Positions 42,530 through 63,304 of a stretch of 64,000 nucleotides of DNA are shown piece after piece. The notes under the pieces are model-generated. The model made no database searches, was not told where the DNA came from, and saw only the letters and a list, made by a program, of their open reading frames with translations. The position numbers and the translations under genes were made by a program. Position 1 is the first letter of the stretch; each line of letters opens with the position of its first letter. The stretch spans positions 1,999,501-2,063,500 of the forward strand of contig NZ_CP118166.1 of assembly GCF_028748065.1 (NCBI RefSeq). The letters are read 5' to 3'. Source of the DNA: Hyphococcus flavus (GTDB lineage Bacteria > Pseudomonadota > Alphaproteobacteria > Caulobacterales > Parvularculaceae).

Positions 42530-44071
42530 ATGTCCTATCAATCCCTTCGCGACTTTATCGGCAAACTCGAATCGGCTGGCGAACTGATCCGCGTATCTGA
42601 ACCCGTGGCGGTGAAGCTCGAGATGACGGAGATCCAGACGCGATTGCTGGCGGCGGGCGGCCCGGCGGTGTTGTTCGAACAGCCGGTGATGGATGACGGA
42701 TCGATCAGCCCCATGCCGGTGCTGGTTAACCTTTTCGGCACGGTTAAGCGCGTCGCCATGGGGGTGACCCTTGAGGGCAAGGAACGAACGACCGCCGGAG
42801 AGCTGCGCGAGGTAGGCGAGCTGCTGGCGTTCCTGCGCCAGCCCGAACCGCCGGGCGGATTGAAAGACGCGCTTGAAATGCTGCCGCTCGCCAAAACCGT
42901 CATGGCGATGAAACCGGCGTCACGGGATTGGGGCGCGCCGTGCCAGGAAGTGGTGAAGACCGGCGACGACATCAATCTCGACGAACTGCCGATCCAGACC
43001 TGCTGGCCAGGGGAGCCGGCGCCGTTGATCACCTGGCCACTGGTGGTGACCAAAGGGCCGGGGACGCGGCGCGAAGACGATTACAATCTCGGCATCTACC
43101 GCATGCAAAAACTCGGGCGCGACAAAACCATCATGCGCTGGCTGAAACATCGCGGCGGCGCGCAGCATCACCAGCGGTGGGGCAAGGAAAAATCTGAACC
43201 CCTACCGGCGGCGGCGGTCATCGGCGCCGACCCGGGAACCATTCTCGCCGCTGTGACGCCGGTGCCCGATACGCTGTCGGAATACCACTTCGCTGGGCTG
43301 ATGCGCGGGAAGAAAGTCGATCTCGTCGATTGCAAGACGCAACCGCTCAAAGTTCCGGCGGAGGCGGAGATCGTGCTCGAAGGGTACGTCTCACTGGATG
43401 ATTACGCCGATGAAGGTCCGTATGGGGATCATACGGGGTATTATAATTCGGTCGAACGGTTCCCGGTGTTTACCATTACTGCGATCACGCACCGGAAAAA
43501 CCCCATTTATCTGTCGACGTTCACGGGCCGCCCGCCGGATGAGCCGAGCGTCCTGGGCGAGGCGCTGAACGAGGTGTTCATCCCCCTCCTGCAACAGCAG
43601 TTTCCTGAAATTACCGATTTCTGGCTACCGCCCGAGGGGTGCAGCTATCGCATCGCGGTCATCAGTATGAAGAAAGCCTATCCCGGTCACGCCAAGCGGG
43701 TGATGATGGGCGCGTGGTCGTATCTGCGCCAGTTCATGTATACGAAATGGGTGATCGTCGTTGATGACGACATCAATGCGCGTGATTGGAAAGACGTGAT
43801 GTGGGCGGTGTCCACAAAGATGGACCCGGCCCGCGACATCACGGTTATTGAAAACACGCCCATAGATTATCTCGACTTCGCCTCGCCCGAGAGCGGCCTC
43901 GGCTCCAAAATCGGCCTCGATGCGACCGACAAACTCCCGCCCGAAACAAACCGCGAATGGGGCGCGGAAATTAGAATGGACGACGACGTGATCAAGCGCG
44001 TCGATGAAATGTGGGAGCGACTGGGCCTGCCGGGAAGCGGCAAAGGGGGTTTGGGAAAAATCATAACTTAG
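42530..44071 (+). CDS. ubiD: UbiD family decarboxylase
   Basis: A 513-residue prenylated-FMN-dependent decarboxylase; the best known member removes the carboxyl of 3-octaprenyl-4-hydroxybenzoate in ubiquinone synthesis. The N-terminus [35 protein letters not shown] leads to the split-barrel core with the metal/prFMN region: [105 protein letters not shown]. The E-x-P and GDHTGYY motifs are intact. Full length. The prFMN synthase ubiX is not in the window. Confidence 0.96.
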
Positions 44072-44097
44072 AACTAAAAAATTGAGAACACACGTGT

Positions 44098-44769
44098 ATG
44101 CATGAATCACTAAGAGAAATTCCAGGACGTATTTTGGAAACTGGATTGGCTGCTCTTGCGCAAGCAAATATGCATGCTGTTTTTTGTGATCCGGGAAATG
44201 AGCATTGGGAGCGTATTTCAGTATTAAATGCAGCTTTGGCAGGAGAACTAGTATTAAAAGCGATTATTGCAAGGGAGCATCCGTTATTGATATTTCGTGA
44301 CTTGTTTGGTTTGGATGACACTACATCTGACGATCTTGATATAAATTTGCTTATTAAAAAAGGGAGAACGTATAATTTTGAACGGCTACCTAATTTATTA
44401 TGGGTGGCTGTAGGAGAAAGAATTCCAGATAGTAAACTTTACGAAGAAATTCAGAAAGTACGAAATTCAATTCAGCATTTCTGCGTTCCTGAGCACCCAG
44501 ATTTGCGAATGTTATCGTTAGAGTTCATTTATAAAAATATAGACCCGCTTTTAGAAAAGCATTTTGATATGTGTGCGATTGATTTTCATGAAGATCATAT
44601 GATTGGATATGATTATATTGTAGATTGTTTAATTTCGCGCGAAATACTTTTCAATATTCCAAAAGAGTTTGAAGTTCATAAGATCAATTTGGAAGATCGG
44701 TTTTCTTCATGCACTTCTGTATACCGGAGTGAGATGCAAAAGCGCATTCAGAATAAGGCTGATAACTAG
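44098..44769 (+). CDS. Orphan HEPN-like protein, AT-rich
   Basis: A 223-residue protein in a stretch clearly richer in A and T than its neighbours, a sign of horizontal acquisition. Helices predominate. A charged N-terminal helix pair contains ALAGELVLKAIIAREHP, and the C-terminal side of the core has EIQKVRNSIQHFC, an R-x4-H signature (R122 and H127) of the kind that forms the RNase centre in HEPN domains. The later half (YIVDCLISREILFNIPKEFEVHKINLEDRFSSC) is unassigned. HEPN proteins are often toxins or defence effectors, and no obvious nucleotidyltransferase antitoxin is next to it. The function is inference. Confidence 0.65.
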   Translation: MHESLREIPGRILETGLAALAQANMHAVFCDPGNEHWERISVLNAALAGELVLKAIIAREHPLLIFRDLFGLDDTTSDDLDINLLIKKGRTYNFERLPNLLWVAVGERIPDSKLYEEIQKVRNSIQHFCVPEHPDLRMLSLEFIYKNIDPLLEKHFDMCAIDFHEDHMIGYDYIVDCLISREILFNIPKEFEVHKINLEDRFSSCTSVYRSEMQKRIQNKADN

Positions 44770-44857
44770 CAATCAATCTTTTTCCGCAAGTTTCTCCACT
44801 TCCTTACGCTCCCCTTTGGGAAGGGTTCAGTCACCATATAGCGCACCTACCGTTCTC

Positions 44858-44961
44858 CCCGCTCACCCCGGCGAAAGCCGGGGCCCAGCTAAACATGATA
44901 ATGCCGGGCGGAGCCCGTCTTTCCGTTTGACTGGATCCCGGCTTTCGCCGGGATGAGCGGA
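44858..44961. repeat. REP/MITE-like long inverted repeat
   Basis: Two ~30-bp arms, about 45 nt apart, are near-perfect complements: left CCGCTCACCCCGGCGAAAG... and right ...CTTTCGCCGGGATGAGCGG. The second arm encodes (in one frame) IPAKAGIQ, a known family of intergenic palindromic elements in alphaproteobacteria. Such elements are usually repeated many times in one genome, and this is the only copy in the window. Confidence 0.8.
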
Positions 44962-45066
44962 TGGTTTTTCTCACAAGTGATTGCTCTGTTCGTAAACGGA
45001 GGAGGAGAAAGACGTTTATATCGCCAGAACAGGCGGGAGCCGTTCATGATACCACGGAAAAATAGT

Positions 45067-45086
45067 TGGTGGACGGCCGTCCACCA
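45067..45086. promoter_or_regulatory. Perfect 20-bp palindrome followed by a T-run
   Basis: TGGTGGACGG/CCGTCCACCA is an exact palindrome followed by CTTTTTTA. It might act as a terminator (20-bp palindromic DNA makes a hairpin only with a tiny loop) or as a binding site for a dimeric regulator. It stands alone in the non-coding region. Confidence 0.5.
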
Positions 45087-45205
45087 CTTTTTTAGCGGTC
45101 CTATACTCGCGGCCGTGATGAGATCAACTGACACAGTTCCATCGGCTTTTGCGTCTGCCGTGCTTACGCGTGAACAGTCCGTGTGCGCCGAAAAGGCGAG
45201 CAAAA

Positions 45206-45241
45206 TGTTGCACAACAAATTTTTTAAAGTTGTACAACTTT
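45206..45241. promoter_or_regulatory. Paired GTTGNACAAC palindromes
   Basis: TGTTGCACAACA (45206-45217) and AAAGTTGTACAACTTT (45226-45241) are perfect palindromes sharing the GTTG[CT]ACAAC core, with a third partial copy TGTACAACA near 45292. Tandem copies of a palindromic core on one DNA face suggest an operator array of an unknown regulator. Confidence 0.45.
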
Positions 45242-45330
45242 CCCCGCAACGCCTTGCCCCAGGCCAAACAGAAGAGACGGGAGAGGGGCCGCTGTACAAC
45301 ATTATCGTGCGGCGAACGCGCGCTGAGGTT

Positions 45331-46197
45331 TCAGCTTCGCGCTTTCACCGCGTCATCGACGAGGGCCAGAAACGCTTCCGGGTCTTGCGCCTTTTCAAGC
45401 GCGCGGGCGGAAATGGTGACGCCCCAGTTATCGGCGATGGCTTTATAGCGGGGGAAGCGCCAGTCGATCAGGCGGGCGAACCCCCAGCGAATGAACGCAT
45501 CGGGGTCGACGTCAGCTTCGGCGAGGCCGGTTTCCTTTCGGTAATCGGCCCAGACGCCGCGCAGAAAGTCCTCATTATAATACATGGGCTTCGGCGCTTT
45601 ATCGAAACGGGCTTTCAGCGCATCGGCATGCGCAGCGTCGCCCTCGATATAAACGATCAGGCAGCAGCCGGAGAGGGCGGTGAGCACCGGGTCGCTCGGG
45701 TCTTCGGCGTCGACCACTTCGCAGATCGACCCGCTCGTGTCGGCGATGAAATGTTCATAGCCGTAAATCGCGCGGGCTTTTTCGATGAAGGCGCCCGTAT
45801 CGTTCATGGCGCGGGTTTCAGCCTCGCGGTGCTGACGCTGGCGGCGAACATAATCGTCAAACGCGATGCCGCCTTTCGTCGGGTCGCCGGGCTTGCCGAG
45901 ATAGGTTGAAAGGGGATCGAGATTGTCGAAGGTAATGTTGGAGGAAATATAGATCGAGTCAGACAACAGAAGGTCGCGCAGCAGTGGCGTCTTCATCGCC
46001 TCGCGTTTGAAATTATCGACTATCGCCTCGTCCATGTAACGGGTGCCAATGCGGTAATCGACGGAGTAATGAAACCAGCGGGCTTCCCGCCGCAAGAGTG
46101 AGGCGATGCGCGTTTTGCCGACGCCGGACATGCCAAGCACGGCGATCGGATCGCCCCGCTTGTATGTTGCTAACGCTTTTTTCGCCTGTTCAAACAT
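45331..46197 (-). CDS. P-loop ATPase of unknown function
   Basis: A 288-residue protein with a Walker A motif IAVLGMSGVGKTRIASLL (residues about 18-35), and a possible Walker B further on (GYEHFIADTSGSICEV). The rest is rich in charged helices (DDYVRRQRQHREAETRAMNDTGAFIEKARAIYGYEHF) without a further recognisable domain. Homologous sequences are annotated ATPase in alphaproteobacteria. It could be a kinase-like nucleotide-binding protein. It lies beside the tRNA-Lys gene, convergent with no neighbour. Confidence 0.75.
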   Translation of the reverse strand: MFEQAKKALATYKRGDPIAVLGMSGVGKTRIASLLRREARWFHYSVDYRIGTRYMDEAIVDNFKREAMKTPLLRDLLLSDSIYISSNITFDNLDPLSTYLGKPGDPTKGGIAFDDYVRRQRQHREAETRAMNDTGAFIEKARAIYGYEHFIADTSGSICEVVDAEDPSDPVLTALSGCCLIVYIEGDAAHADALKARFDKAPKPMYYNEDFLRGVWADYRKETGLAEADVDPDAFIRWGFARLIDWRFPRYKAIADNWGVTISARALEKAQDPEAFLALVDDAVKARS

Positions 46198-49588: not shown

Positions 49589-50188
49589 TCAGGCGCGTCC
49601 CGCAAGCAGATGCCCGGAAATAGGGGCTGGCGTCTCGCCTCGCAAGGCTTTGACGTGTGCGCTGAGCGTCATCACGATCGTGAGACTGTCGGTTATCTCG
49701 CCCGTCATCACCATTTCTAACAAGTCTTTATAGAAAACCCATTTTATGGTTAACGCTTCGGAAGCTTCTGGCTTGGCTTCGCCTTGTGTTAAATCCCATG
49801 CGAGAAAGCAAACTGCCCGTTCGTCAGTAACTGAGTTTGATACATCGAACGTGCTAAGTTGCTCCCATGATGCGGCAGTCAGGCCGGTTTCTTCAGTAAG
49901 TTCGCGCTTCGCTGATGCTTGAGCGGTGATATTGAGCGGACCGCCTCCTTCGGGCAGTTCCCAGCTATACCGATCAAGCGGAAAGCGGTGCTGACCGACC
50001 AGCGGAACCTTGCCGTCAGCATTAATCGGCATAACGCCAATCGCAAGGTTCTTAAACCGAACGACGCCATATTCCCCGGGAGAGCCGTCGGGATGCGTAA
50101 TGCTGTGATCAACAATACTGATCCACGGGTTGTCAAAAACCGTTGATTTTGACTTTACACGCCAAGGTCCAACTTTGTCTGAGGTCAC
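49589..50188 (-). CDS. NUDIX hydrolase
   Basis: A 199-residue NUDIX enzyme, ADP-ribose pyrophosphatase-like. The Nudix box is recognisable as ELPEGGGPLNITAQASAKRELTEETGLTAAS, with the REx2EExG signature represented as RELTEETG. Surrounding blocks VVRFKNLAIGVMPINADGKVPLVGQHRFPLDRYSWELPEGG are typical of the ADPR/nudix groups. The exact substrate is uncertain. The start overlaps the cyclophilin gene stop by 4 nt, so it is the second of the pair. Confidence 0.9.
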   Translation of the reverse strand: MTSDKVGPWRVKSKSTVFDNPWISIVDHSITHPDGSPGEYGVVRFKNLAIGVMPINADGKVPLVGQHRFPLDRYSWELPEGGGPLNITAQASAKRELTEETGLTAASWEQLSTFDVSNSVTDERAVCFLAWDLTQGEAKPEASEALTIKWVFYKDLLEMVMTGEITDSLTIVMTLSAHVKALRGETPAPISGHLLAGRA

Positions 50189-51794: not shown

Positions 51795-51870
<76 letters not shown>

Positions 51871-51972
51871 TTCTCAAAATTTTCAACATCCAAAAACGTC
51901 CAATAACCAAATAAAAACAGTGTATTATTGCGGTTCAGCGTCCAAGGGCGTCCGACAAGGTCTCTTATAATT

Positions 51973-52032
51973 GGGGGTATTTGGGGGTATATTCGGGGGT
52001 ATCGACGATTCAGGTGAGGAGGCGATACCCCC
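51973..52032 (+). promoter_or_regulatory. Left arm-type sites (GGGGGTAT x3 and inverted ATACCCCC)
   Basis: GGGGGTAT at 51973-51980, 51983-51990 and 51995-52002 and the complement ATACCCCC at 52025-52032 lie directly before the integrase start. The same octamer recurs at 63357-63364 and 63369-63376. Regular copies at both ends are the layout of integrase/excisionase arm-binding sites; the last copy overlaps the integrase ribosome-site area, so autoregulation is possible. Confidence 0.7.
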
Positions 52033-52035
52033 AAA

Positions 52036-53229
52036 ATGCTTACAGCGCTCGCAATCAAGAACGCCGCCCCGCAGCCCAAGGCCTACAAGCTCTTCGATGG
52101 CGGCGGACTGCACCTCATTATCAATCCAAACGGCTCGAAACTCTGGCGGCTCAAGTACCGGCATCTCGGAAAGGAAAAGCTGATTTCATTCGGGCCGTAT
52201 CCCGATGTCAGTCTCGTCAAAGCGCGGAAGGCGCGCGAGGAAGCGCGGGAACTGATCGCCGAAGGGTTGGACCCGGCCGAACAACGCCGCGAAGCGCGCG
52301 AAAGAGAGTTGCAGACTCGAGAGAGGACCTTTCAACGGCTGGTCGATGATTTCCTTCAAAAACAGGAGCGGGAAGGTCGGGCGGAATCGACCCTCAAGAA
52401 GAACCGATGGTTGCTTGGCATGGCTTGCGATGAATTCGGCGAAATGCCCGTAGTCGAGATTAAGGCGCCGGTGATCTTAAAGGCGCTACGGAAAATTGAA
52501 GCGCGTGGGACGTATGAAACCGCGCGACGCATGAAAATCATCGTCGGTTCAGTTCTGCGCTACGGGATTTCGTGCGGCTGGATTGATGCGGACCCGACGC
52601 CAGCATTGAACGGCGCTCTGACGCAGCCACCGCAAAAGCCCCGCGCTGCAATTACTGACCCGGAAAAGCTCGGTGGATTATTGCGTGCGATCGATGCGTA
52701 TGAAGGGCAAGCGTCTACACGGATAGGGTTGCAGCTACTTGCTCTACTATATCCGCGCCCCGGAGAACTAAGACAGGCGCGGTGGAACGAATTCGATTTC
52801 AGTAAAGCCGTTTGGACAATCCCGGCCGAACGGGCGAAAACGCGGCGCCCTCACCGCGTGCCGCTTCCGAAAGCCGCGGTGGCGAAGCTCAAAGAATTAA
52901 ATGCGCTGACGGGCTCTGGCGATTTAATTCTTCCGTCGCTGCGCTCAGTAAAAAGGCCGGTGAGCGACGCTACTTTTACGGCTGCCTTGCGGCGCATGGG
53001 TTTCGCAAAGGAAGAAATGACGGCGCACGGGTTTCGCGCGACCTTTTCCACTTTGGCAAACGAATCTGGCCTTTGGAATCCCGACGCAATCGAACGCGCG
53101 CTTGCTCATGTGGAGGGTAATGCTGTCCGCGCCGCCTATGCCCGCAGCGAATTCTGGGATGAGCGGGTTACGATGGCGGAATGGTGGGCTGAAAAACTAA
53201 TGAATCTGTGCAATTCCGGCCAAAGGTGA
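52036..53229 (+). CDS. P4-type tyrosine integrase (DUF4102 domain)
   Basis: A 397-residue site-specific integrase. The N-terminal DUF4102-type arm-binding domain reads LTALAIKNAAPQPKAYKLFDGGGLHLIINPNGSKLWRLKYRHLGKEKLISFGPYPDVSLVKARKAREEARELIAEG. The core-binding SAM-like domain is at about 95-185. Catalytic residues are in PRPGELRQARW (Arg), MTAHGFRATFSTLANE (HxxR) and ALAHVEGNAVRAAYARSEFWDER with the Tyr nucleophile. It is placed next to tRNA-Phe and points into the island, as in P4-like elements. It should catalyse integration and excision. Confidence 0.95.
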   Translation: MLTALAIKNAAPQPKAYKLFDGGGLHLIINPNGSKLWRLKYRHLGKEKLISFGPYPDVSLVKARKAREEARELIAEGLDPAEQRREARERELQTRERTFQRLVDDFLQKQEREGRAESTLKKNRWLLGMACDEFGEMPVVEIKAPVILKALRKIEARGTYETARRMKIIVGSVLRYGISCGWIDADPTPALNGALTQPPQKPRAAITDPEKLGGLLRAIDAYEGQASTRIGLQLLALLYPRPGELRQARWNEFDFSKAVWTIPAERAKTRRPHRVPLPKAAVAKLKELNALTGSGDLILPSLRSVKRPVSDATFTAALRRMGFAKEEMTAHGFRATFSTLANESGLWNPDAIERALAHVEGNAVRAAYARSEFWDERVTMAEWWAEKLMNLCNSGQR

Positions 53230-53396
53230 GCGCAACGCCGAACTTGAATTTTTTGACTGGTTTTCCCCAACGCTCGGCGAATCATCCGTTTTGGCGCTAT
53301 TTTATCCGTAATTGTACGGCTAGGGGCAAAGCGTTCCGGTAGTGGTCCGAAGCGAAGGGAGGTGGCGGTCGTACGCAACGAAGCGGACTTGCGACG

Positions 53397-54254
53397 ATGA
53401 CGACCAAAAATGCTTTTTCTGAATTCGTAAACGACGATGCGCCAGAGCCAGCGCCTTCCCCTTGGCTTAACAACACTGACAATCAGTTTTTAACTCGTAA
53501 AAGCGCCTTGCATTGGGCACGGCACGATTACTGGCGGCTTTGGGAAGCCATGTTGCTCATTCTTGGCCTTAGCCCAGAATACTATTCCCGATACGATTCT
53601 CATTACAATAAGAAACAGTCCACTTCATCGTTAAACACCGGCCTCGGTAGCCTTTTGCAACTAAGCAAACTGGATATGGCTTTAGAGCGATATTGCGCTC
53701 TTTCTTCGAGCGATAAGCTTAACGATTGGCTGTATCTCTACGACATCCTTCAAAGGTCGGATCAGTTCAAGGAAGAGCAAATTAGACCAACTGAATTTAT
53801 CGCGTGGGCGAAACTCAAGCATCTCGAGGTCAATAATCTAATCGAAGAAGCGGTCACCACAATTTGCGGACCGTTGCCCATTTGGGGTTATGAAAAAATT
53901 GGCTTTCTGGATGAGGCAGGCAATTTGGAAGAGGGCCTTGACGGACCGAAATGGCTGCGCGGCGTAGCGCGGCTGGAAAAGCCCGACAATGACGATAAAC
54001 CGAAATCGCCAGAGAATGCTAAGGCGAAGCCGCCTGCAGATTTGCAAGGTGAATTAAAACCAAAAGAACGGGACAGCCTGCTCAAGCTCGTGATCGGCAT
54101 GGCGGTTGAGCAATATGGATATACTCCCGATTCTTCCCGTAACGCAGCCACTAAACACATAGAAACGGATTTGCGCGCGCATGGTGTTCCCCTCGACCGT
54201 AACACGATTTTGAAATGGCTGCGGGAAGGGGCGGAATTACTGCCCAAAGCTTGA
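53397..54254 (+). CDS. Conserved island protein of unknown function
   Basis: A 285-residue protein. The N-terminal half is aromatic and helical (LHWARHDYWRLWEAMLLILGLSPEYYSRYD). The C-terminal segment KERDSLLKLVIGMAVEQYGYTPDSSRNAATKHIETDLRAHGVPLDRNTILKWLREGAELLP is a module seen in many mobile-element proteins beside AlpA-type regulators, probably DNA-associated. Between integrase and AlpA, with 167 nt before it. It may take part in island regulation or maintenance; a precise role is not known. Confidence 0.75.
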   Translation: MTTKNAFSEFVNDDAPEPAPSPWLNNTDNQFLTRKSALHWARHDYWRLWEAMLLILGLSPEYYSRYDSHYNKKQSTSSLNTGLGSLLQLSKLDMALERYCALSSSDKLNDWLYLYDILQRSDQFKEEQIRPTEFIAWAKLKHLEVNNLIEEAVTTICGPLPIWGYEKIGFLDEAGNLEEGLDGPKWLRGVARLEKPDNDDKPKSPENAKAKPPADLQGELKPKERDSLLKLVIGMAVEQYGYTPDSSRNAATKHIETDLRAHGVPLDRNTILKWLREGAELLPKA

Positions 54255-54338
54255 GAGTTATCGGAATTACGATAACCACCGTTGAATTCATGCAGTCTGT
54301 AGCGGAATTCGCCCCCAAACATTCACGGACATATTAGA

Positions 54339-54362
54339 CCGTCTCCGTTTTCAAATAGACGG
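54339..54362. promoter_or_regulatory. Inverted repeat before the AlpA-like gene
   Basis: CCGTCT and AGACGG flank 12 nt just before the AlpA-like GTG start (54372), overlapping its ribosome site region (GGAG at 54361). A second small repeat, TTATCG...CGATAA, lies at about 54258-54275. Either could be an operator; low certainty. Confidence 0.35.
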
Positions 54363-54371
54363 AGTTATAAC

Positions 54372-54578
54372 GTGTCGAATACAATCAACTTCCCCGAAAC
54401 AGGATTTGTCCGGCTTAATCAAATCCTGGCGCCGCGCGGACCTATTCCGGTCTCTAAGTCCACCTGGTGGGCAGGCGTCAAGGAGGGCCGGTTTCCTCAG
54501 CCGCAAAAGCTCGGGCCGCGCACGACGGTCTGGCGCGCCGAGGACATCCGGGCACTTTACGAAACCGGGGCGTCTTAA
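54372..54578 (+). CDS. AlpA-family helix-turn-helix regulator
   Basis: A 68-residue MerR-like/AlpA protein from GTG 54372 with GGAG seven bases upstream. GFVRLNQILAPRGPIPVSKSTWWAGVKEGRFPQPQKLGPRTTVWRAEDIRALYE is the complete domain. AlpA-type proteins activate the excision of P4-like elements and act as excisionase-like factors, so it may control mobility of this island. It is followed three bases later by the next gene. Confidence 0.9.
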   Translation: MSNTINFPETGFVRLNQILAPRGPIPVSKSTWWAGVKEGRFPQPQKLGPRTTVWRAEDIRALYETGAS

Positions 54579-54581
54579 TCG

Positions 54582-55019
54582 ATGGTGCGCCGCATCAAAT
54601 GGCGGTCCGTTCATGCGCATCTCAACTACGAAGTGGCTGAGCTGGCGAAAGCGGTCGGCGTATGCCGTTCAACAGTACGAAACTGGATTCGAGACGGCCT
54701 GCTGCCGGTCATCGAAGATCAACGACCACAGCTAATCGTCGGTGAAGATTTCAAGCGGTGGTATCAGCAACGGCTCAATTCGCGAAAACGGTCTTGCTGC
54801 CCTGGCGAAATGTTCTGCATGAAATGCCGTCGCCCGCGGGCGCCTGCGCTCGGCATGGTTGACTACGTTTTCAATAGCAAAGCGGCCGGATCACTCACCG
54901 CGCTTTGCAGCGTTTGCGAAAGTCCCATGTTTCGCGCCTGCGGATTGGACCGTATCGGACAAACCATGCCCAGCATTCACGTATCAATTTGCGATAGAGG
55001 CGCCGACACTAAGCGGTAG
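54582..55019 (+). CDS. HTH and zinc-ribbon protein
   Basis: A 145-residue protein. The N-terminal HTH (EVAELAKAVGVCRSTVRNWIRDGLLPVIEDQRPQLIVGEDFKRWYQQR) is MerR/excisionase-like and follows AlpA by 3 nt. The C-terminal half has Cys pairs CCPGEMFCMKCRRPRAP and LTALCSVCESPMFRACG, giving a possible zinc ribbon. A partner in element regulation is likely; no family name can be given with certainty. Confidence 0.75.
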   Translation: MVRRIKWRSVHAHLNYEVAELAKAVGVCRSTVRNWIRDGLLPVIEDQRPQLIVGEDFKRWYQQRLNSRKRSCCPGEMFCMKCRRPRAPALGMVDYVFNSKAAGSLTALCSVCESPMFRACGLDRIGQTMPSIHVSICDRGADTKR

Positions 55020-55065
55020 CGCACAACGCCTCTTATTTTGATACTTTAACTAGGACTAATTCATC

Positions 55066-56151
55066 ATGCCAAAACGCAATCCCGAAAACGAACGCATCAA
55101 GCGCCGCTACATCCAGCATCTACAGCGCGCAAGAGGATACAGCGAAGCAACCATTTTGACAGCCGCGGCCTCGATTGACCGCTTCATTGCCATGAATGGG
55201 CACAAGTCGCTGAAGAAATTCCATATTCAGCAGGCGGTGGCGTTTCGGGAGCGATTCGAAGAAGAAACAAACCCGAAGACCGGAAAGCTCCTGAGCAAAT
55301 CGACGATCTCGACAACGCTGAAGGCGCTGCGCGATTTCTTCACATGGCTCGCCGAGCAGCCGGGATATAAATCCCGAATCAAATTCAGCGACGCTGCGTA
55401 TTTCACGCCGAGCCTGCATGATGAGCGGATTGCACGTTCAACCCGGCGCCAGTTCATCCCCACCCTCGCGCAAATTCACAAGGTCATCCATGGCATGCCG
55501 ACCTCGACGATTGTCGAGCGTCGCAATCGTGCGCTGATCGCCCTGACGATCCTGGTGTCGCCGCGAGACGGCGCCGCCGCGTCGCTGCGGCTCAAACATA
55601 TCGATATGGAAAAGCGCGTGGTTTTTCAGGACGGCGCCGAGGTCAACACGAAGTTTCGTAAAACCATCAAGGCGGGGTTCTATCCCATTGGCGGGGATGC
55701 AGAGCAGTTTGTCGCCGAATGGGTTGCGGAGCTGCGCGATGATCTCGGTTTTGGCCCTGACGATCCGCTTTTTCCCAAGACCAAGCGCTCGCTCGATAGG
55801 GACGGCAGATTCGAGTATGTGGCGCTGGACCGCGCGCCCTGGCGCAATACCGCATCAATTCGGAAGGTATTTCGCAAAGCTTTCGAATCAGTCGGACTTC
55901 CCTACGCCAGCCCGCACAGCTTCCGCCATACGCTCGGGCGGCTCGCTTTTGAGAAAAACCTCACCATCGCCCAGCTGAAAGCCTGGAGCCAAAATCTCGG
56001 TCATGAGGAAATCATGACCACCGCCACCAATTACGCGAAAATGAGCGAAGACGAGCAGTTGCAGGTACTCGCGAGCATTGGCGAAGGGGATCGACGGGGC
56101 GATGATCAAGACGTTATCAAGGAACTCAAGAAGCTGGCCGCTCGCTATTGA
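55066..56151 (+). CDS. Second tyrosine recombinase (XerC/D-like)
   Basis: A 361-residue tyrosine recombinase, distinct from the P4-type integrase. The SAM-like N-terminal domain (ENERIKRRYIQHLQRARGYSEATILTAAASIDRFI) is followed by the catalytic domain: LTILVSPRDGAAASLRLKHID (first Arg, as PRDGA), SPHSFRHTLGRLA (HxxR), LGHEEIMTTATNYAKM (His and Tyr). It sits just upstream of hsdM on the same strand with a 70-nt gap. Recombinases of this kind occur next to defence operons in many genomic islands and might rearrange hsdS, but only one hsdS is present here. Confidence 0.9.
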   Translation: MPKRNPENERIKRRYIQHLQRARGYSEATILTAAASIDRFIAMNGHKSLKKFHIQQAVAFRERFEEETNPKTGKLLSKSTISTTLKALRDFFTWLAEQPGYKSRIKFSDAAYFTPSLHDERIARSTRRQFIPTLAQIHKVIHGMPTSTIVERRNRALIALTILVSPRDGAAASLRLKHIDMEKRVVFQDGAEVNTKFRKTIKAGFYPIGGDAEQFVAEWVAELRDDLGFGPDDPLFPKTKRSLDRDGRFEYVALDRAPWRNTASIRKVFRKAFESVGLPYASPHSFRHTLGRLAFEKNLTIAQLKAWSQNLGHEEIMTTATNYAKMSEDEQLQVLASIGEGDRRGDDQDVIKELKKLAARY

Positions 56152-56221
56152 ACCGCGTGCGTCGTGCTGCGGATCGCGCTAAACAGTTCGAATCGCATAC
56201 CGAGAGCAGACTAGGGGCGAA

Positions 56222-57796
56222 ATGACCGAAGAACAAAAGCGAAAGCTGGAATCGTACCTGTGGAATATCGCCGACGCCTTGCGCGGCAAGATGCACGCCG
56301 ACGAGTTCCGCGACTACATTCTCGGCTTCATCTTCTACAAATACCTCTCCGAAAAGCTGTATCTCTATGCGAACGCGATCCTCTCTGAGGACGGAGTCGA
56401 TTTCCTTTCTATCGATGAGAAAAGCGACGAAGGCAACGAGTATCTAGAGGCGATCAAGGAAGACGCCGTTCTCCAGCTAGGATATTTCCTGAAGCCGTCC
56501 GAGCTATTCAGCGAAGTCGCAAAACGCGGCGCAGCGAAGGAAGAAGAAGGCGCATCGAATTTCATACTCGACGACCTGACGCGCATCCTTAATAATATTG
56601 AACGCTCGACGATGGGCACGGAAAGTGAAGACGATTTCATCGCGCTTTTTGAAGACCTCGATCTCACCTCGACAAAGCTCGGCCGCACAGAAAAAGCGAA
56701 GAACGAGCTAATCGTCAAAATTTTGGTCGAGTTGAACAAGATCGATTTCGAACTCGATAAAGTCGATTCCGACGTTCTCGGCGACGCTTATGAATATCTG
56801 ATCGGCAAATTCGCCGCTGGCGCCGGAAAGAAGGCGGGCGAATTTTACACGCCGCAATCGGTCTCAACCATTCTTGCGAAGCTCGTCACCACCGGCAAGA
56901 CGAAGCTGAAATCGGTTTATGATCCGACCTGCGGTTCCGGTTCGCTGCTCTTGCGCGTTTCGAAGGAAGTGAAGGAAGTCTCCGCCTATTACGGGCAGGA
57001 GATGAACCGCACGACCTACAACCTCGCGCGGATGAACATGATTTTGCATGACGTGCACTACCGCAAGTTTGATTTGCGTCAGGAAGACACGCTCGAACAC
57101 CCGCAACACCTGGAAGAGCGATTTGAAGCGGTGGTCGCTAATCCGCCCTTTTCGGCGAAGTGGAGCGCCAACAAGATATTCGAAAGCGACGACCGCTTTT
57201 CCCAATATGGCCGCCTCGCGCCGTCATCAAAGGCGGATTTCGCCTTTGTCCAGCACATGCTTTACCATCTCGACGATAACGGCCAGATGGCGGTGGTGTT
57301 GCCGCATGGCGTCCTTTTTCGCGGCGGGGCGGAAGGGCATATCAGGCGCTTTCTGATCGAAGATCGCAACTGGCTCGACGCGGTCATCGGGCTGCCCGCA
57401 AACATTTTCTACGGTACATCGATCCCAACCTGCGTTCTCGTCTTCAAGAAATGCCGCGAGCATCCAGACGATATTCTGTTCATCGATGCCAGCGCGCATT
57501 TTGAAAAGCAGAAAAACCAGAATCATCTCCGCAAGAAAGATATTAAGAGCATCATCGACACATATCGTGTGCGTGAGCCAAAGGAAAAACTCTCTTATGT
57601 GGCGCCGCTTTCGGAAATCGAAGAAAACGATTTCAACCTCAATATCCCGCGATATGTAGATACGTTTGAGGAAGAAGAACCGGTCGATCTTCAAGCCGTT
57701 GTTCGGGAGCTGAAAGATCTCGAAGAGAACATGGCGGAAGCCGACGAGGCGATCCGCAAATTTTGCCAGGAACTCGGCATCGAGGCGCCGGTCTAA
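56222..57796 (+). CDS. hsdM: Type I restriction-modification M subunit
   Basis: A 524-residue HsdM. The N-terminal helical domain (LESYLWNIADALRGKMHADEFRDYILGFIFYKYLSEK) is followed by the N6-adenine methyltransferase domain: SAM motif I DPTCGSGSLLL (residues 234-244) and motif IV NPPF (307-310). Complete C-terminus. It protects host DNA with HsdS and is needed for restriction by HsdR. Its stop overlaps the hsdS ATG by one base (TAATG). Confidence 0.96.
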   Translation: MTEEQKRKLESYLWNIADALRGKMHADEFRDYILGFIFYKYLSEKLYLYANAILSEDGVDFLSIDEKSDEGNEYLEAIKEDAVLQLGYFLKPSELFSEVAKRGAAKEEEGASNFILDDLTRILNNIERSTMGTESEDDFIALFEDLDLTSTKLGRTEKAKNELIVKILVELNKIDFELDKVDSDVLGDAYEYLIGKFAAGAGKKAGEFYTPQSVSTILAKLVTTGKTKLKSVYDPTCGSGSLLLRVSKEVKEVSAYYGQEMNRTTYNLARMNMILHDVHYRKFDLRQEDTLEHPQHLEERFEAVVANPPFSAKWSANKIFESDDRFSQYGRLAPSSKADFAFVQHMLYHLDDNGQMAVVLPHGVLFRGGAEGHIRRFLIEDRNWLDAVIGLPANIFYGTSIPTCVLVFKKCREHPDDILFIDASAHFEKQKNQNHLRKKDIKSIIDTYRVREPKEKLSYVAPLSEIEENDFNLNIPRYVDTFEEEEPVDLQAVVRELKDLEENMAEADEAIRKFCQELGIEAPV

Positions 57797-58974
57797 TGGC
57801 GGCCAAGGCGATAGAAAAGCGCATTCCGAAACTCCGGTTTCCAGAGTTTGATGAAGAGTGGAGTGCGCGACCTCTCAAGTCGTTTGGCGAGCTAAAAAAC
57901 GGCCACAACGCGGAAAAAGGTGATTATGGTACGGGTACGCCTTTTATCAATTTGATGGATATTTTTGGGATTGAATTTTTAGACACTGTGAGCAATCTCG
58001 GGCTCGTTAAAACTTCCTCAAAAGATTTGCATACATACAATATCGAATACGGCGATGTGCTGTTTGTGCGTAGTAGCGTAAAAAGAAAGGGCGTTGGACA
58101 GGCCTGCGTGGTAATGACTGACAAAAGCGGTATTGTGTTCAGTGGATTCATCATAAGGTACCGACCAAAGCCTGCCACTTTGGATGCAAAGTTTAGCGGC
58201 TATGTGTTCAATTCAGAAACCGTTCGTAAAAAAATCCTTAGTCTCGCCACATCAAGCGCAAACACAAATATCAACCAAGAGTCACTCGGAGAGTTGGCAC
58301 CCTTTGTGCCGGAGCTTCCTGAACAAAAGAAAATTGCGTCTTTCTTGGGGGCGGTGGATGACAAGTTGCGAGCCTTGCGCAAAAAGCGCGACCTCCTCGC
58401 CGACTACAAGCGCGGCGTTATGCAACAAATATTCTCTCAAGAAATCCGTTTCACGCGCGACGACGGCTCTTCGTTCCCGGATTGGGAGGAGAAGAAGTTA
58501 GCAAACCTACTCACTGTCCAGTATGGAAAAGACCATAAGGAATTACCGAAAGGAGACATTCCAGTTCTGGGCACGGGTGGAATAATCCGCCATGTTAACC
58601 AATCGCTTCATGACGGTCCATCAGTACTGATTGGAAGAAAAGGAACTATTGACCAGCCACGTTTCGTGACTTCGCCTTTCTGGACGGTGGATACACTTTT
58701 TTATTCAAATATTTCCCGAGGGTACGTACCATATTTCGTGTACCTTGTTGTCAAGGCAGTAAATTGGCTCAGATTCAATGAGGCAACTGGAGTGCCGAGC
58801 TTGAGCGCATCAGCCATTCATGGCGTCAACGTTCTCGTCCCACCCAGCAATGATGAACAACAAAAAATCGCTGATTTCCTCTCCACCATCGACGCCAAAA
58901 TCGAGGCCGTCGCAGACCAAATCGCCGCCATGGAATCCTTCAAAAAAGGCCTGTTGCAGCAGATGTTTGTTTAG
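57796..58974 (+). CDS. hsdS: Type I restriction-modification S subunit
   Basis: A 392-residue specificity subunit from ATG 57796 (MAAKAIEKRIPKLRFPEF). Two target-recognition domains, about residues 10-175 and 225-350, each begin with a conserved FPEF/FPDWEEKKL-type segment and alternate with the conserved coiled-coil helices EQKKIASFLGAVDDKLRALRKKRDLLADYKRGVMQQIFSQ and EQQKIADFLSTIDAKIEAVADQIAAMESFKKGLLQQMF. The recognition domains are more AT-rich than the flanking coding DNA, which is common for hsdS. The specificity cannot be read. The next gene starts 12 nt on. Confidence 0.94.
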   Translation: MAAKAIEKRIPKLRFPEFDEEWSARPLKSFGELKNGHNAEKGDYGTGTPFINLMDIFGIEFLDTVSNLGLVKTSSKDLHTYNIEYGDVLFVRSSVKRKGVGQACVVMTDKSGIVFSGFIIRYRPKPATLDAKFSGYVFNSETVRKKILSLATSSANTNINQESLGELAPFVPELPEQKKIASFLGAVDDKLRALRKKRDLLADYKRGVMQQIFSQEIRFTRDDGSSFPDWEEKKLANLLTVQYGKDHKELPKGDIPVLGTGGIIRHVNQSLHDGPSVLIGRKGTIDQPRFVTSPFWTVDTLFYSNISRGYVPYFVYLVVKAVNWLRFNEATGVPSLSASAIHGVNVLVPPSNDEQQKIADFLSTIDAKIEAVADQIAAMESFKKGLLQQMFV

Positions 58975-58986
58975 AATGACGGTATC

Positions 58987-59652
58987 ATGCAAAGTATTAA
59001 AGATTTGATAGACGATTATGCGGATGAATATCCTCACCTCGCATACTACCACAAGCTTATTGAAACCGCTGAAGAAAACTTGCGTGAGCACCCAGACATT
59101 ACGATAGAAACCTGCAAAAGCCTTATTGAAGGCGTATGCAAGACAATTTTAAAATCGCTTGATAATGCGTTCGACGAGAAAGTCGTCGAAGGTATGAAAC
59201 CTAAGCAATTAGTCGAACGAACGTTTGACGACTTATCACGTTACGACGAGTCGGTTGAAATCGGTTTTACGTCACAATTTGCAAGCCTAGTTCAAGAAAT
59301 GAACCTGATAAGAAATCGCCGCGGAGATATTTCCCATGGAAGATCTGCTCCCAAAACCGATGTAAGTAGCTCGGGCTTTTCAGAGTTTATCCTTCGCATG
59401 ACTGAAAACTCGGTCTTCTATATGCTGAATATTTTTTGCAATATTGATCTTTCGGAGCAAAAACCAATCGAATACGAAGAGCAGAAAAACTTCAACGCCT
59501 ATCTGGACGACGAAATTTCAATTGCGCTCGGAGAGCACGCAGAGGGTTTGGATATTTGCTATAGCCGCGCTCTGTATGATCAAGAGCCAGTCACTTACGA
59601 AGAGCGACTTCGGAATTACAAGTCAGAGATAGAAGAATCAGACGAAGAATGA
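58987..59652 (+). CDS. Abi_C/HEPN-type protein nested in the hsd operon
   Basis: A 221-residue protein fitting the abortive-infection C-terminus (Abi_C) family: a helical core with TCKSLIEGVCKTILKSLD and the characteristic end segment LVQEMNLIRNRRGDISHGRSAP. RNRRGDISHG (residues 109-118) carries the R-x5-H pair of the HEPN RNase active centre. The C-terminal half is acidic and unassigned. It starts 12 nt after hsdS and its stop overlaps hsdR's start (ATGA), so it is made with the restriction genes. A back-up RNase toxin triggered by phage, or a control of restriction, is inference. Confidence 0.85.
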   Translation: MQSIKDLIDDYADEYPHLAYYHKLIETAEENLREHPDITIETCKSLIEGVCKTILKSLDNAFDEKVVEGMKPKQLVERTFDDLSRYDESVEIGFTSQFASLVQEMNLIRNRRGDISHGRSAPKTDVSSSGFSEFILRMTENSVFYMLNIFCNIDLSEQKPIEYEEQKNFNAYLDDEISIALGEHAEGLDICYSRALYDQEPVTYEERLRNYKSEIEESDEE

Positions 59653-62534
59653 CCACACAACCTGAACAGGTTCTTGAAGACAATCTCGTCGAGCAACTGG
59701 AAACGCTCGGCTATGATCGGGTAACGATTCGCGACGAGAATGACTTGATCGCCAATCTCAAAACCCAGATCGAAAAACACAACAAGGTCACGCTCTCCGA
59801 TACGGAATTCGAGCGTGTCCTCAATTATCTCGACAAGGGTAACGTTTTTAAGCGCGCAAAAACCTTGCGGGACAAGTTTCACCTGAACCGCGATGACGGC
59901 TCCAGCCTTTACCTTGAATTTCTCAATATGGAGCACTGGTGCCGTAATGAGTATCAGGTAACGCAGCAGATCAGCGTCGAGGGCGCCTACAAGAATCGTT
60001 ATGACGTAACATTGCTCGTCAACGGCCTGCCGCTCGTCCAAATCGAATTAAAGCGGCGCGGGCTGGAGCTGAAGGAAGCATTCAATCAGGTCAATCGCTA
60101 TCAGCGGCACTCCTATTGGGCGGGGAATGCACTTTTCAACTATGTCCAGATTTTTGTTATTTCAAACGGCGTCAATACGAAATACTACGCCAACAACCGG
60201 CGTCAAACGTTCAAACAGACATTCTTTTGGGCGGATCGCGACAATAACCTGATCACGCAGCTCCATGAATTCGCCGAGGCGTTTCTGGAGAAGTGTCACC
60301 TCTCCAAGATGATCTGCAAATACACCGTGCTGCATGAATCCGATAAGGTGCTGATGGTGTTGCGGCCGTATCAGTACTACGCAGTGGAAGCGCTGATCGA
60401 CCGCGTCAAGAACACCGAAAAGAACGGCTATATCTGGCACACGACCGGCTCCGGCAAGACGCTGACGAGTTTTAAGGCGGCGCAAATTCTCGATGATCTG
60501 CCGAGTGTCGAGAAGGTTGTTTTCTGCGTTGATCGCGCCGACCTCGATTACCAGACAACGCGCGAGTTCAACTACTTTTCTGAAGGCAGCGTTGACGGTA
60601 CAGACAATACGAAAAAGCTCGTTGACCAACTCACAGACGAAACCAAACTAATCGTCACGACAATCCAGAAACTCAATACTGCAATCCACAACAGGCGCTA
60701 CCAGGACCGAATGGTGCCGCTCGCTGACAAGCGCGTGATTTTCATTTTCGATGAATGTCACCGCTCGCAATTCGGCGAGACGCACAAGCGTATCAAGAAC
60801 TTTTTCAATCGCGCGCAGATGTTCGGGTTTACCGGCACGCCGATTTTTGCGGACAACGCCGTGCGGAATATTCATGGCAAACGAACGACGAAAGACCTAT
60901 TCGACGACTGCCTTCATAAATACGTCATTACGAACGCGATCAGCGATGAAAATGTCCTGAAATTTTCGGTTGAATATTGGGGCAAGCTGAAACGCCGCAA
61001 TGGCAAGCTGATCGATGAGGAAGTCGCCGGGATCGACACCAAAGAGTTTTTCGAAAGCGACGACCGGATTGAAGGCGTTGTCGATTGGATCATCGCCAAC
61101 CATGACCGCAAAACGCACAGCCGGGATTTCACGGCGATGTTCTGCGTCGGCAGCGTCGATGGGCTGATCAAATATTACGAGACATTCAAAGCCAAGAAAG
61201 AAACAGGCAAACACAATTTACGCGTGGTGACGATTTTCACCTACGCCGCCAATGAAGACGACGCCGATGCGGATGGGAACATCGCCGAACCGGATTTCGA
61301 CATCCGCACGGATGAGCTGGTCAATAAGCATTCACGTGACAAGCTCAACGACTTCATCGAAGACTATAACGCCATGTACGGCGTCAGGCATTCGGCGAAA
61401 GATTCAAAGGCGTTTTATACCTATTACAAAGACATCGCGAAGCGCATCAAGGAGCGGGAAAAAGACGGGTTCAACGATAAAGACCGCGTCGATATTCTCC
61501 TCGTCGTCAACATGTATTTGACGGGCTTTGACGCCAAGAAGGTCAACACGCTTTATGTTGATAAGAACCTCAAATATCATGGGCTGATTCAGGCGTTTTC
61601 GCGAACGAACCGGACGCTGGGCGAATTAAAATCGCACGGGAATATCGTCTGTTTCCGAAACCTGAAGGACAAGACCGATCAAGCGATTGCGCTCTTTTCA
61701 AATCCGGAAGCGCGCGAAATCATTCTGATGGAGCCCTATGGCGATTATGTCGATCAGTTCAACGAAGCGTTGACGCTTTTGCTCTCGATTGCGCCGACCG
61801 TGGATAGCGTCAACGAGCTACCGAGTGAAAAAGAAGAACTCGCCTTTGTTAAGGCTTTTCGGAATCTGATCAGGCTGAAGAATATTCTTGGCGGATTTTC
61901 AGACTTCACCTTTGACGATCTCGACATCGATGAGCAGGCGTTCGAAGACTACAAGAGCAAGTATCTCGATATATACGACAAGACGCGTCAGGGTGAGGAG
62001 GGCGAAAAATCCTCGATCATCAACGACATTGATTTTGAGCTGGAGCTGATCCAACGCGACGAAATCAACGTCGCCTACATTCTGGAGCTGCTGGCTGATT
62101 TGCACGCCACAAGCCAGAAAAAAGACACCAAAGGCAAATCGGACGCGGAGGAGAAGCGCAAAGCGATCAGCGATCTTTTAGGCTCCGAAGCGCAGCTGCG
62201 CAGCAAGAAAGAATTGATCGAGCGGTTCATCGCTGAATTCATGCCGAAAGTGAAGCCGGGCGAGGATGTTCGGCAAGCCTTCAAGGACTATTGGTCAACG
62301 GAACGGATGGATTCTCTTGAGGCGCTTTGCGCTGAAGAAGGGCTTCACCGCGACAAGCTCGAAGACATTATCGAGGCCTATCACTTTACCAACAGAGAGC
62401 CGTTACGCGATACGGTCGTCGAAGCGCTTGTCGAAAAACCGAAGGTCTTGCAACGCAAAAAAATTGTCGAGCGTGTGACCGAGAAAATTCTCGCACTGGT
62501 GCGGAAATTCGACGACGACATGGGGGATGTGTGA
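59649..62534 (+). CDS. hsdR: Type I restriction endonuclease R subunit
   Basis: A 961-residue HsdR. The N-terminal PD-(D/E)xK nuclease site is YDVTLLVNGLPLVQIELKRRG (Asp119, Glu133, Lys135). The helicase motor has Walker A TGSGKT (266-271), DECH (368-371, FIFDECHRSQFG), and motifs such as FTGTPIF and FSRTNRTLG. A long C-terminal helical domain binds HsdM/S. All motifs are intact. ATP-dependent translocation and cleavage of unmodified DNA is the known role. Its start overlaps the HEPN gene stop; its stop overlaps the next ATG by one base. Confidence 0.95.
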   Translation: MTTQPEQVLEDNLVEQLETLGYDRVTIRDENDLIANLKTQIEKHNKVTLSDTEFERVLNYLDKGNVFKRAKTLRDKFHLNRDDGSSLYLEFLNMEHWCRNEYQVTQQISVEGAYKNRYDVTLLVNGLPLVQIELKRRGLELKEAFNQVNRYQRHSYWAGNALFNYVQIFVISNGVNTKYYANNRRQTFKQTFFWADRDNNLITQLHEFAEAFLEKCHLSKMICKYTVLHESDKVLMVLRPYQYYAVEALIDRVKNTEKNGYIWHTTGSGKTLTSFKAAQILDDLPSVEKVVFCVDRADLDYQTTREFNYFSEGSVDGTDNTKKLVDQLTDETKLIVTTIQKLNTAIHNRRYQDRMVPLADKRVIFIFDECHRSQFGETHKRIKNFFNRAQMFGFTGTPIFADNAVRNIHGKRTTKDLFDDCLHKYVITNAISDENVLKFSVEYWGKLKRRNGKLIDEEVAGIDTKEFFESDDRIEGVVDWIIANHDRKTHSRDFTAMFCVGSVDGLIKYYETFKAKKETGKHNLRVVTIFTYAANEDDADADGNIAEPDFDIRTDELVNKHSRDKLNDFIEDYNAMYGVRHSAKDSKAFYTYYKDIAKRIKEREKDGFNDKDRVDILLVVNMYLTGFDAKKVNTLYVDKNLKYHGLIQAFSRTNRTLGELKSHGNIVCFRNLKDKTDQAIALFSNPEAREIILMEPYGDYVDQFNEALTLLLSIAPTVDSVNELPSEKEELAFVKAFRNLIRLKNILGGFSDFTFDDLDIDEQAFEDYKSKYLDIYDKTRQGEEGEKSSIINDIDFELELIQRDEINVAYILELLADLHATSQKKDTKGKSDAEEKRKAISDLLGSEAQLRSKKELIERFIAEFMPKVKPGEDVRQAFKDYWSTERMDSLEALCAEEGLHRDKLEDIIEAYHFTNREPLRDTVVEALVEKPKVLQRKKIVERVTEKILALVRKFDDDMGDV

Positions 62535-63304
62535 TGTTTGAATGGGTACGGACCGCATTAAAGTGTATTCCGAAAATTGCAAAGAAGGTACAAAGATTTT
62601 TCTTTCGAAAAGACGATTATTCAGGATTGATTCCTCTAACTGAGAGAGAGTACGAAGAACGATTTCAAAAATTGTCGGACGAACAGCGGTTGCGTGCGTT
62701 TGAGATGGTACTCGATACGCGAAAATTTGAAATTGAAATGTATTGGAAGCGTGCAACCTATTTTTGGGCATTTATTGCGAGTGCATTTGCGGGGTATATA
62801 TTCTTGGTTCGCGCCGGGGCAGAAAATCAATTTTTTGGACTCGTAGTAATTTGTATCGGCTTAGTGCTTTCCTTTGCGTGGCTCTTCACAAATTTGGGAA
62901 GCAAAACTTGGCAAAGGCATTGGGAAAAACATCTCGATCTACTGGAAGATCAGTTTGTTGGCCCTCTTTACAAGACAGTGAATTCACGAAAAACTTTCTC
63001 AGTTTCAAAAATCAATGGGATCGTAAGCGGCGTCTTTTGCGCGGCATGGGTATTGATGGGTATCGATCACCTGCAGAAAAATGGAAGTTTATATCTAAGC
63101 TTTGATATTGGAGATGCTGATTTTCTTATTTGGATTGCACTGCTTGGGGCGTTTGCAGCGATATTTGCTATGGTTTTTGGTTATGGGAGGGGTAGGTTCG
63201 GACTGCAGCAAACGCAGATGTTCAAGCGGATCGTGAAATATCAGGAAGTTGATGAGGTTTTAAAACTAAAGATGAAATTTGAAGAGCACGATAAATCGAA
63301 GTAA
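62534..63304 (+). CDS. Predicted multi-TM protein at the end of the hsd operon
   Basis: A 256-residue protein from ATG 62534 (TGATG overlap with hsdR). A soluble, basic N-terminus (about 70 residues, YEERFQKLSDEQRLRAFEMVLDTRKFEIEMYWKRA) leads to two close hydrophobic spans (TYFWAFIASAFAGYIFLVR, FFGLVVICIGLVLSFAWLFTN), a soluble loop, then two more (NGIVSGVFCAAWVLMGI, FLIWIALLGAFAAIFAMVFGYG). The sequence is more AT-rich than hsdR. I do not recognise the family. Position at the operon end and TM content fit a membrane effector of a defence system; this is inference. Confidence 0.8.
   Translation: MFEWVRTALKCIPKIAKKVQRFFFRKDDYSGLIPLTEREYEERFQKLSDEQRLRAFEMVLDTRKFEIEMYWKRATYFWAFIASAFAGYIFLVRAGAENQFFGLVVICIGLVLSFAWLFTNLGSKTWQRHWEKHLDLLEDQFVGPLYKTVNSRKTFSVSKINGIVSGVFCAAWVLMGIDHLQKNGSLYLSFDIGDADFLIWIALLGAFAAIFAMVFGYGRGRFGLQQTQMFKRIVKYQEVDEVLKLKMKFEEHDKSK

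Follow-up and report, generated by a model that had tools for sequence, protein, structure and literature searches.

The locus

The window, the whole stretch of DNA analysed here, comprises 64,000 nt of Hyphococcus flavus (assembly GCF_028748065.1, contig NZ_CP118166.1, positions 1,999,501–2,063,500, forward strand). All coordinates are positions in the window unless a locus is named. The features around the gene under study are as follows.

42530..44071, + strand: ubiD, flanking gene (Pfam UbiD, UbiD_C and UbiD_N); its stop lies 26 nt ahead of the HEPN gene start
44098..44769, + strand: coding sequence of a protein with a predicted HEPN fold, 223 aa, ATG start (ORF list, family alignment, AlphaFold2 model and HEPN matches)
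within 44098..44769, + strand: predicted HEPN core, residues 1–158 approximately, and short C-terminal extension, residues 160–223 approximately
44245..44259, + strand: E-x3-K codons (E50...K54), in predicted helix 2
44461..44478, + strand: RNSIQH codons (R122...H127), predicted catalytic R-x4-H
44859..44960, no strand: REP-type doublet, two inverted units with 36-nt arms and a 30-nt spacer, a dispersed genome repeat
45067..45086, no strand: perfect palindrome TGGTGGACGGCCGTCCACCA, flanked by a T-run on either side and matched on both strands in a terminator scan
45331..46197, − strand: flanking P-loop/AAA gene (AAA_18 match weak, under the cut-off), which bounds a variable slot of the genus

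The 223-aa ORF on the + strand lies exactly where the original prediction had placed it. Its G+C content is 0.359 against 0.60 for ubiD, and its GC3 is 0.28 against 0.74; the sharp contrast in base composition that had been described is thus real. The codon-usage analysis that had been suggested gave GC3 values of 0.53–0.74 across 11 other measured genes of the window. Across 634 segments (672 nt each) taken at steps along the 64 kb, the background G+C content is 0.552 on average (s.d. 0.044), and just three segments are at or below the value of the HEPN gene plus 0.02.

The two flanking genes are ubiD and the P-loop/AAA gene on the opposite strand, and, as had been claimed, no antitoxin-like gene was found between ubiD, the HEPN gene and the P-loop gene according to the ORF list and the Pfam analysis of the flanks. 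A simple sigma-70 scan, which is weak evidence, showed no + strand promoter for the HEPN gene. No Pfam or NCBIfam family matches the 223-aa protein at the cut-off. Ten neighbouring genes in the window were tested against PADLOC, and no match was obtained except for a weak one to PDC-S07 in a NUDIX-like ORF (49589–50185).

Region downstream of the HEPN gene

The 561 nt after the gene (44770–45330) had been described as containing a long inverted repeat and palindromes but no gene. The 36-nt repeat and the palindromes were found, and none of the overlapping ORFs of at least 80 aa in this interval has evidence of being a gene. The arms of the repeat, 44859–44894 and 44925–44960, are 86% complementary. 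The unit CCCGGCTTTCGCCGGGATGA has 36 matches with up to two mismatches in the 3.47-Mb genome, against none for the reversed control, and matches of about 100 nt to the doublet occur at many genome loci, as expected of a dispersed inverted pair. The RNA fold of the doublet has an energy of −72.3 kcal/mol (z −6.9). Rfam gave no match at the doublet, tRNA being the only match. The REP-type element named in the original prediction is therefore present, but it belongs to the genome as a whole and is not tied to the HEPN gene; a specific link between the two is ruled out because the doublet is dispersed genome-wide. We regard it as a likely passenger that lies outside the HEPN system, and it possibly serves as a transcription end.

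The perfect palindrome lies within a second, low-copy repeat, of which a further copy is present elsewhere (82% over 68 nt). Judging from its sequence, it may act as a bidirectional terminator between the convergent ubiD–HEPN and P-loop transcripts. By eye, a number of TTGTACAAC-like boxes were seen at 45210–45310, one of them the perfect palindrome AAAGTTGTACAACTTT; they are possible operator remnants.

A likely genomic island elsewhere in the window

A likely genomic island extends over 51795–63304, starting at tRNA-Phe (51795–51870). The following genes are found in it; we assigned the names integrase, recombinase and hsdM by reading the sequence.

52036–53229: integrase-like ORF
55066–56151: second recombinase-like ORF
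56222–57796: hsdM-like gene
57763–58974: hsdS (Methylase_S)
59649–62534: hsdR (HSDR_N, EcoR124_C)
62531–63304: membrane protein of the 8xMP family

Between hsdS and hsdR, an ORF of 221 aa (58987–59652) has no Pfam match at E ≤ 0.001. It carries RNRRGDISHG, which to our reading resembles another HEPN-type motif. No significant similarity to the protein encoded at 44098 was detected, and the ORF is a candidate of the 'guilt by embedding' kind.

Predicted fold and active-site residues

Metal-independent RNase activity as a dimer is one of the features ascribed to the HEPN superfamily. AlphaFold2, supplied with 14 sequences, predicts an all-helical structure for the window protein with a mean pLDDT of 90.4 and a pTM of 0.88, and the long helices of the model are residues 8–28, 37–60, 112–126 and 136–156. 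The VIA-align list is headed by 1ufb (Z 11.3, rmsd 2.7, 117 aa) and 4nqf, a 'HEPN domain protein' (Z 11.3, rmsd 3.1, 126 aa), followed by 1o3u, HEPN (Z 10.3), and several HEPN-MNT/HepT toxins (Z 9–10). The entries 1ufb, 1ylm, 1wty and those of MntA-HepT are presumed to be HEPN-like where the entry title is silent. Clearly unrelated structures begin further down, with a designed protein at Z 7.2 and an rmsd of 7.5. According to the warning of the tool, Z values of 10–11 are in a range that helical bundles can reach, and the fold call therefore rests on VIA-align together with the sequence signatures. Foldseek by itself found nothing at E ≤ 0.001 in either PDB or BFVD, and sequence searches of the PDB gave no meaningful relative of the window protein.

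In section 6 of PMC3710099, the HEPN signatures are given as Rx4-6H, a polar residue (mostly N, D or H) next to the R, and an upstream Ex3[KR]. The original prediction had pointed to an R-x4-H pair in VRNSIQHF. This stretch corresponds to residues 121–128, at the end of helix 112–126, and R122, N123, I125, Q126, H127 and F128 are invariant in the 14 aligned rows. Thus, all 14 rows contain both the Rx4-6H pair (R122...H127) and the polar residue right after the R (N123). The acidic Ex3[KR] element of helix 2 is found as E50 and K54, both invariant in 14/14 rows and located inside helix 37–60. The confident model also shows the expected four helices, with the R-x4-H motif at the end of the third, in agreement with the VIA-align list led by HEPN structures.

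The proposed structure check was thus carried out and yielded a HEPN-like model instead of the non-HEPN fold that would have spoken against the idea. According to the model and the aligned residues, the window protein likely adopts a HEPN fold with a HEPN active-site signature. The earlier term 'RNase-like' agrees with the predicted fold and motif, and RNase function remains a prediction from these.

Family and distribution

A tblastn search detected homologues on eight plasmid records; identity is 36–51%, and 88% or more of the query is covered in every case. The hosts are Agrobacterium, Roseovarius, Yoonia, Rhizobium, Paracoccus and Pantoea, and seven of the eight records are typed as conjugative. 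The phage record PV036456.1 also carries a homologue (38% identity). A search with the alignment as query added 14 loci on genome contigs (34–60%) and one viral contig (35%); viral contigs gave no match in the single-protein scan. The sources of the added loci include Hoeflea, Novosphingobium, Methylosinus, Thioclava, Rhizobium, Spirabiliibacterium and the cyanobacterium Microcoleus. Among the 14 genome-contig copies, that of locus L017 is frameshifted and that of L023 ends at a contig edge.

A profile search of 385 genomes of the class, the own genome included, gave matches in six: the own genome, two with full-length homologues (L087 and L088), and three with weak core matches in longer proteins, one of which, on examination, is a DUF3644/HEC-08-type protein. 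Members of the family are sparse and occur on conjugative plasmids, in phages and on the chromosomes of distantly related bacteria. The gene had been called an orphan; since its family is present on plasmids, phages and chromosomes, this description is wrong.

The dN/dS ratio is 0.06–0.12 in five of ten homologue pairs with unsaturated dS, and the dS of the window gene itself is saturated. A chance ORF or an artefact is ruled out by these five pairs and by homologues of 34–60% identity in which most or all of the query is covered.

Horizontal acquisition

A search of 99 other relatives of the host, of which 27 belong to the same genus, did not find the HEPN gene, nor did a single-sequence search of 288 genomes of the class. 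Together with the few profile matches among the 385 genomes, these results rule out vertical inheritance. In the tree, the window row groups with a Hoeflea row and with a genome from a different family of the class, with modest support (89/87); the highest identity in the tree is 58%, and the best overall is 57–60%. The G+C content of the HEPN gene is lower than that of the surrounding locus in all 23 rows, in a few of them by just 1–2 points.

The P-loop gene is present in 18 of the 28 genomes of the genus, the own genome included. The interval between ubiD and the P-loop gene was read in nine congeners (L075–L083), a set that excludes congeners with the two genes on separate contigs and G012, in which they are about 72 kb apart. 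The nine intervals are 1.0–13.5 kb long, and none of them contains the HEPN gene. Four contain a gene that, from reading the sequence and not from a family search, we take to be sulfotransferase-like, and the other five contain unrelated cargo. The interval (44072–45330 in the window) is therefore a variable slot in the genus. No simple empty site was seen among the nine, and the exact ends of the insertion are not definable because the slot is variable.

The comparison with relatives that had been proposed thus shows absence from the 99 genomes and the nine intervals, and no vertical inheritance. Foreign composition, sporadic distribution and absence in relatives support horizontal acquisition of the window gene. 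The word 'recently' in the original prediction is supported by composition and absence in relatives, but neither a clean empty site nor a close donor was found. Apart from the orphan label, the original interpretation is essentially borne out.

Genes adjoining the relatives

Selected neighbours of chosen loci, in three partly overlapping sets of ten, were tested against PADLOC, and as no control set was included the matches are not to be read as a rate. The matched neighbours are MkoA of Mokosh (L002), Dsr1 (L003), AbiD (L004), PDC-M58A/Mrr_cat (L005), PDC-S49 (L007), PD-Lambda-5_A (L010) and SoFic (L012). PDC-S19, a DUF3644 protein, directly adjoins the HEPN gene in L017 and L087, in differing arrangements; by our own reading, the L087 neighbour also carries an R-x4-H, RHEIEH. 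RnlA/RnlB are annotated beside the Paracoccus plasmid copy, and the Roseovarius copy is adjoined by a BglII-type enzyme together with a methyltransferase. As a separate observation, L004, L009, L018 and L023 share a constant cassette after the HEPN gene, composed of an unknown 354-aa protein, a PIN protein, a BglII-type endonuclease and an MT-A70 methyltransferase.

The HEPN homologue of Spirabiliibacterium (L021, 10001–10672) has a G+C content of 28% and a 4-nt overlap with the next gene. Its surroundings are read by us as a his operon; the names rsmB, guaA and his that we use for genes of L015, L017 and L021 all come from reading the sequence.

A GHKL ATPase of about 660–690 aa adjoins the HEPN gene in six of the 23 loci. 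In three of them (L002, L011 and L012) the ATPase gene lies downstream and is convergent with the HEPN gene; in the other three (L006, L019 and L020) it lies upstream and has the same direction. Five of the six ATPases are mutually 61–94% identical, and the sixth shows about 24% identity. PADLOC recognized neither the ATPases nor several other neighbours. The gene could encode one half of a two-gene defence system, the effector, with the GHKL ATPase as sensor, the window copy having lost its partner or responding to another trigger. The adjacency in two arrangements favours this, as do the fusions of HEPN (Ymh) with GHKL paraMORC ATPases in restriction–modification neighbourhoods reported in PMC3710099. 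However, no GHKL ATPase is present within the examined stretch in the other 17 loci, and the host genome has no real homologue of it (best E 0.0865). Such an ATPase is encoded on 44 plasmid records; among the best 40 of them, which do not include the Agrobacterium record of L002, the Paracoccus record is the only known HEPN locus. In addition, two of 289 class genomes have distant ATPase homologues, and no HEPN gene was found there in a stretch reaching up to about 1.5 kb past the match. We consider the two-gene system improbable for the window gene; the recurring ATPase offers a concrete hypothesis for the switching of some HEPN effectors.

No neighbour family occurs in more than six of the 23 loci, and the HEPN gene is therefore mostly stand-alone. 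The protein might alternatively be the toxin of a toxin–antitoxin pair, such as a HEPN-MNT toxin, with the antitoxin missing or encoded elsewhere. The nearest solved folds include HEPN-MNT toxins, and plasmids, which carry homologues in the eight records, are a usual home of toxin–antitoxin pairs. On the other hand, the most frequent neighbour is the GHKL ATPase, and no MNT-like neighbour recurs in the 23 loci; the window copy is intact without a small neighbour gene, between ubiD and the AAA/P-loop gene; and relatives stand alone behind unrelated genes, for example what we take to be guaA, or within the presumed his operon. A toxin is, in our estimate, slightly less probable again than the two-gene system.

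Proposed function

We propose that the gene was acquired horizontally and encodes a single-gene HEPN ribonuclease whose role is most probably that of an anti-phage effector of the abortive-infection type, and assign a probability of about 0.68 to this reading. It builds on the intact, compositionally foreign ORF, the scattered occurrence of the family, the predicted HEPN-like fold with its invariant active-site residues, and the defence genes adjoining several relatives. An alternative as improbable as the toxin is a non-defensive HEPN protein, involved in RNA processing or regulation or a catalytically idle nucleic-acid binder, carried as neutral cargo: according to PMC3710099 some HEPN domains lie outside defence and those that lost the charged and polar residues are regarded as inactive binders, and the window copy is in a housekeeping context with nearly no PADLOC matches among the nearest tested genes, but the catalytic signature is strictly conserved, defence genes adjoin several relatives, and close relatives lack the gene, which would not be expected of a housekeeping RNA enzyme.

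For the proposed abortive-infection-type effector, the following mechanism can be envisaged. As the last gene behind ubiD, the HEPN gene could be transcribed at a low level, and the protein would stay inactive. Read-through from ubiD perhaps supplies the transcript, as suggested by the 26-nt gap and the lack of a + strand promoter match. The protein would form a dimer in which two R-x4-H motifs line an RNA-cutting cleft. A signal made by the phage, perhaps sensed by the C-terminal extension (160–223), would switch the protein on; the activated protein would cut RNA non-specifically, and phage production would therefore be stopped along with the cell, as has been reported for the HEPN protein Tha. 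The RNase activity, the trigger and the phage protection of the window protein are inferred, and R122 and H127 are clear targets for point mutation.

More tentatively, the proteins may represent a distinct, unnamed family of minimal HEPN RNases, in which a 223-aa chain combines a phage sensor (the C-terminal extension) and an RNase and moves as a single gene among plasmids, phages and host transcription units, a GHKL ATPase switch having been recruited in some lineages in an echo of the HEPN-paraMORC fusions. This wider proposal is possible but rather doubtful. The broad type, a stand-alone HEPN RNase-like defence candidate, is already known and the gene adds to it; the kind of finding is expected rather than surprising. 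A family outside Pfam and NCBIfam coverage, with a confident model, joins the stand-alone HEPN defence candidates.

Comparison with known systems

The HEPN-MNT and MntA-HepT toxins have the fold in common with the predicted structure (Z 9–10), and their MNT partner gene was not found at the window locus. HepS of Gifsy-1 (Z 6.8) and AbiV (Z 5.9) are among the structural matches with weak similarity. HepS was identified by the title of its structure, for which no paper was found in the literature searched. According to PMC3710099, AbiV typically lacks the H of R-x4-H, whereas H127 is present in the window protein.

DUF3644 is counted among the HEPN families in PMC3710099. The PADLOC DUF3644 model matches four of the 14 family members. 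With Pfam DUF3644 (PF12358), the window protein shows no match at E ≤ 0.01, and only one of the 14 members reaches this cut-off (E 0.0014). All 14 aligned members match PADLOC PDC-S64 (model PDLC05059) at E ≤ 0.001. The window protein matches it with E 2.3e-9 over residues 33–132, which cover only model positions 28–119 (92 of 339), and with 223 aa it is much shorter than the model. Such PDCs are described in PMC12988326 as putative single-gene candidates from 'guilt by embedding', mostly unvalidated. In the literature searched, no paper naming PDC-S64 was found, nor one for HEC-08 with PADLOC.

Tha, a HEPN protein of Staphylococcus aureus prophages, is activated by tail proteins and causes non-specific RNA decay; Tha-1 is a non-specific RNase with the motif R265NSIMH270, and protection is lost in H270A (PMC11087260). 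Tha and the window protein are both single HEPN effectors, the latter by prediction, with almost the same motif, RNSIMH in the former and RNSIQH in the latter, and both families are carried by phages. Tha is a 301-aa protein whose HEPN domain (184–296) is C-terminal and preceded by about 180 N-terminal residues, whereas the window protein has 223 aa with the predicted HEPN core at about residues 1–158 and a short extension behind it; the comparison is one of motif and layout. Because the layouts differ, the likeness would be one of working and not of membership. By analogy, Tha is the best analogue found for the proposed mechanism.
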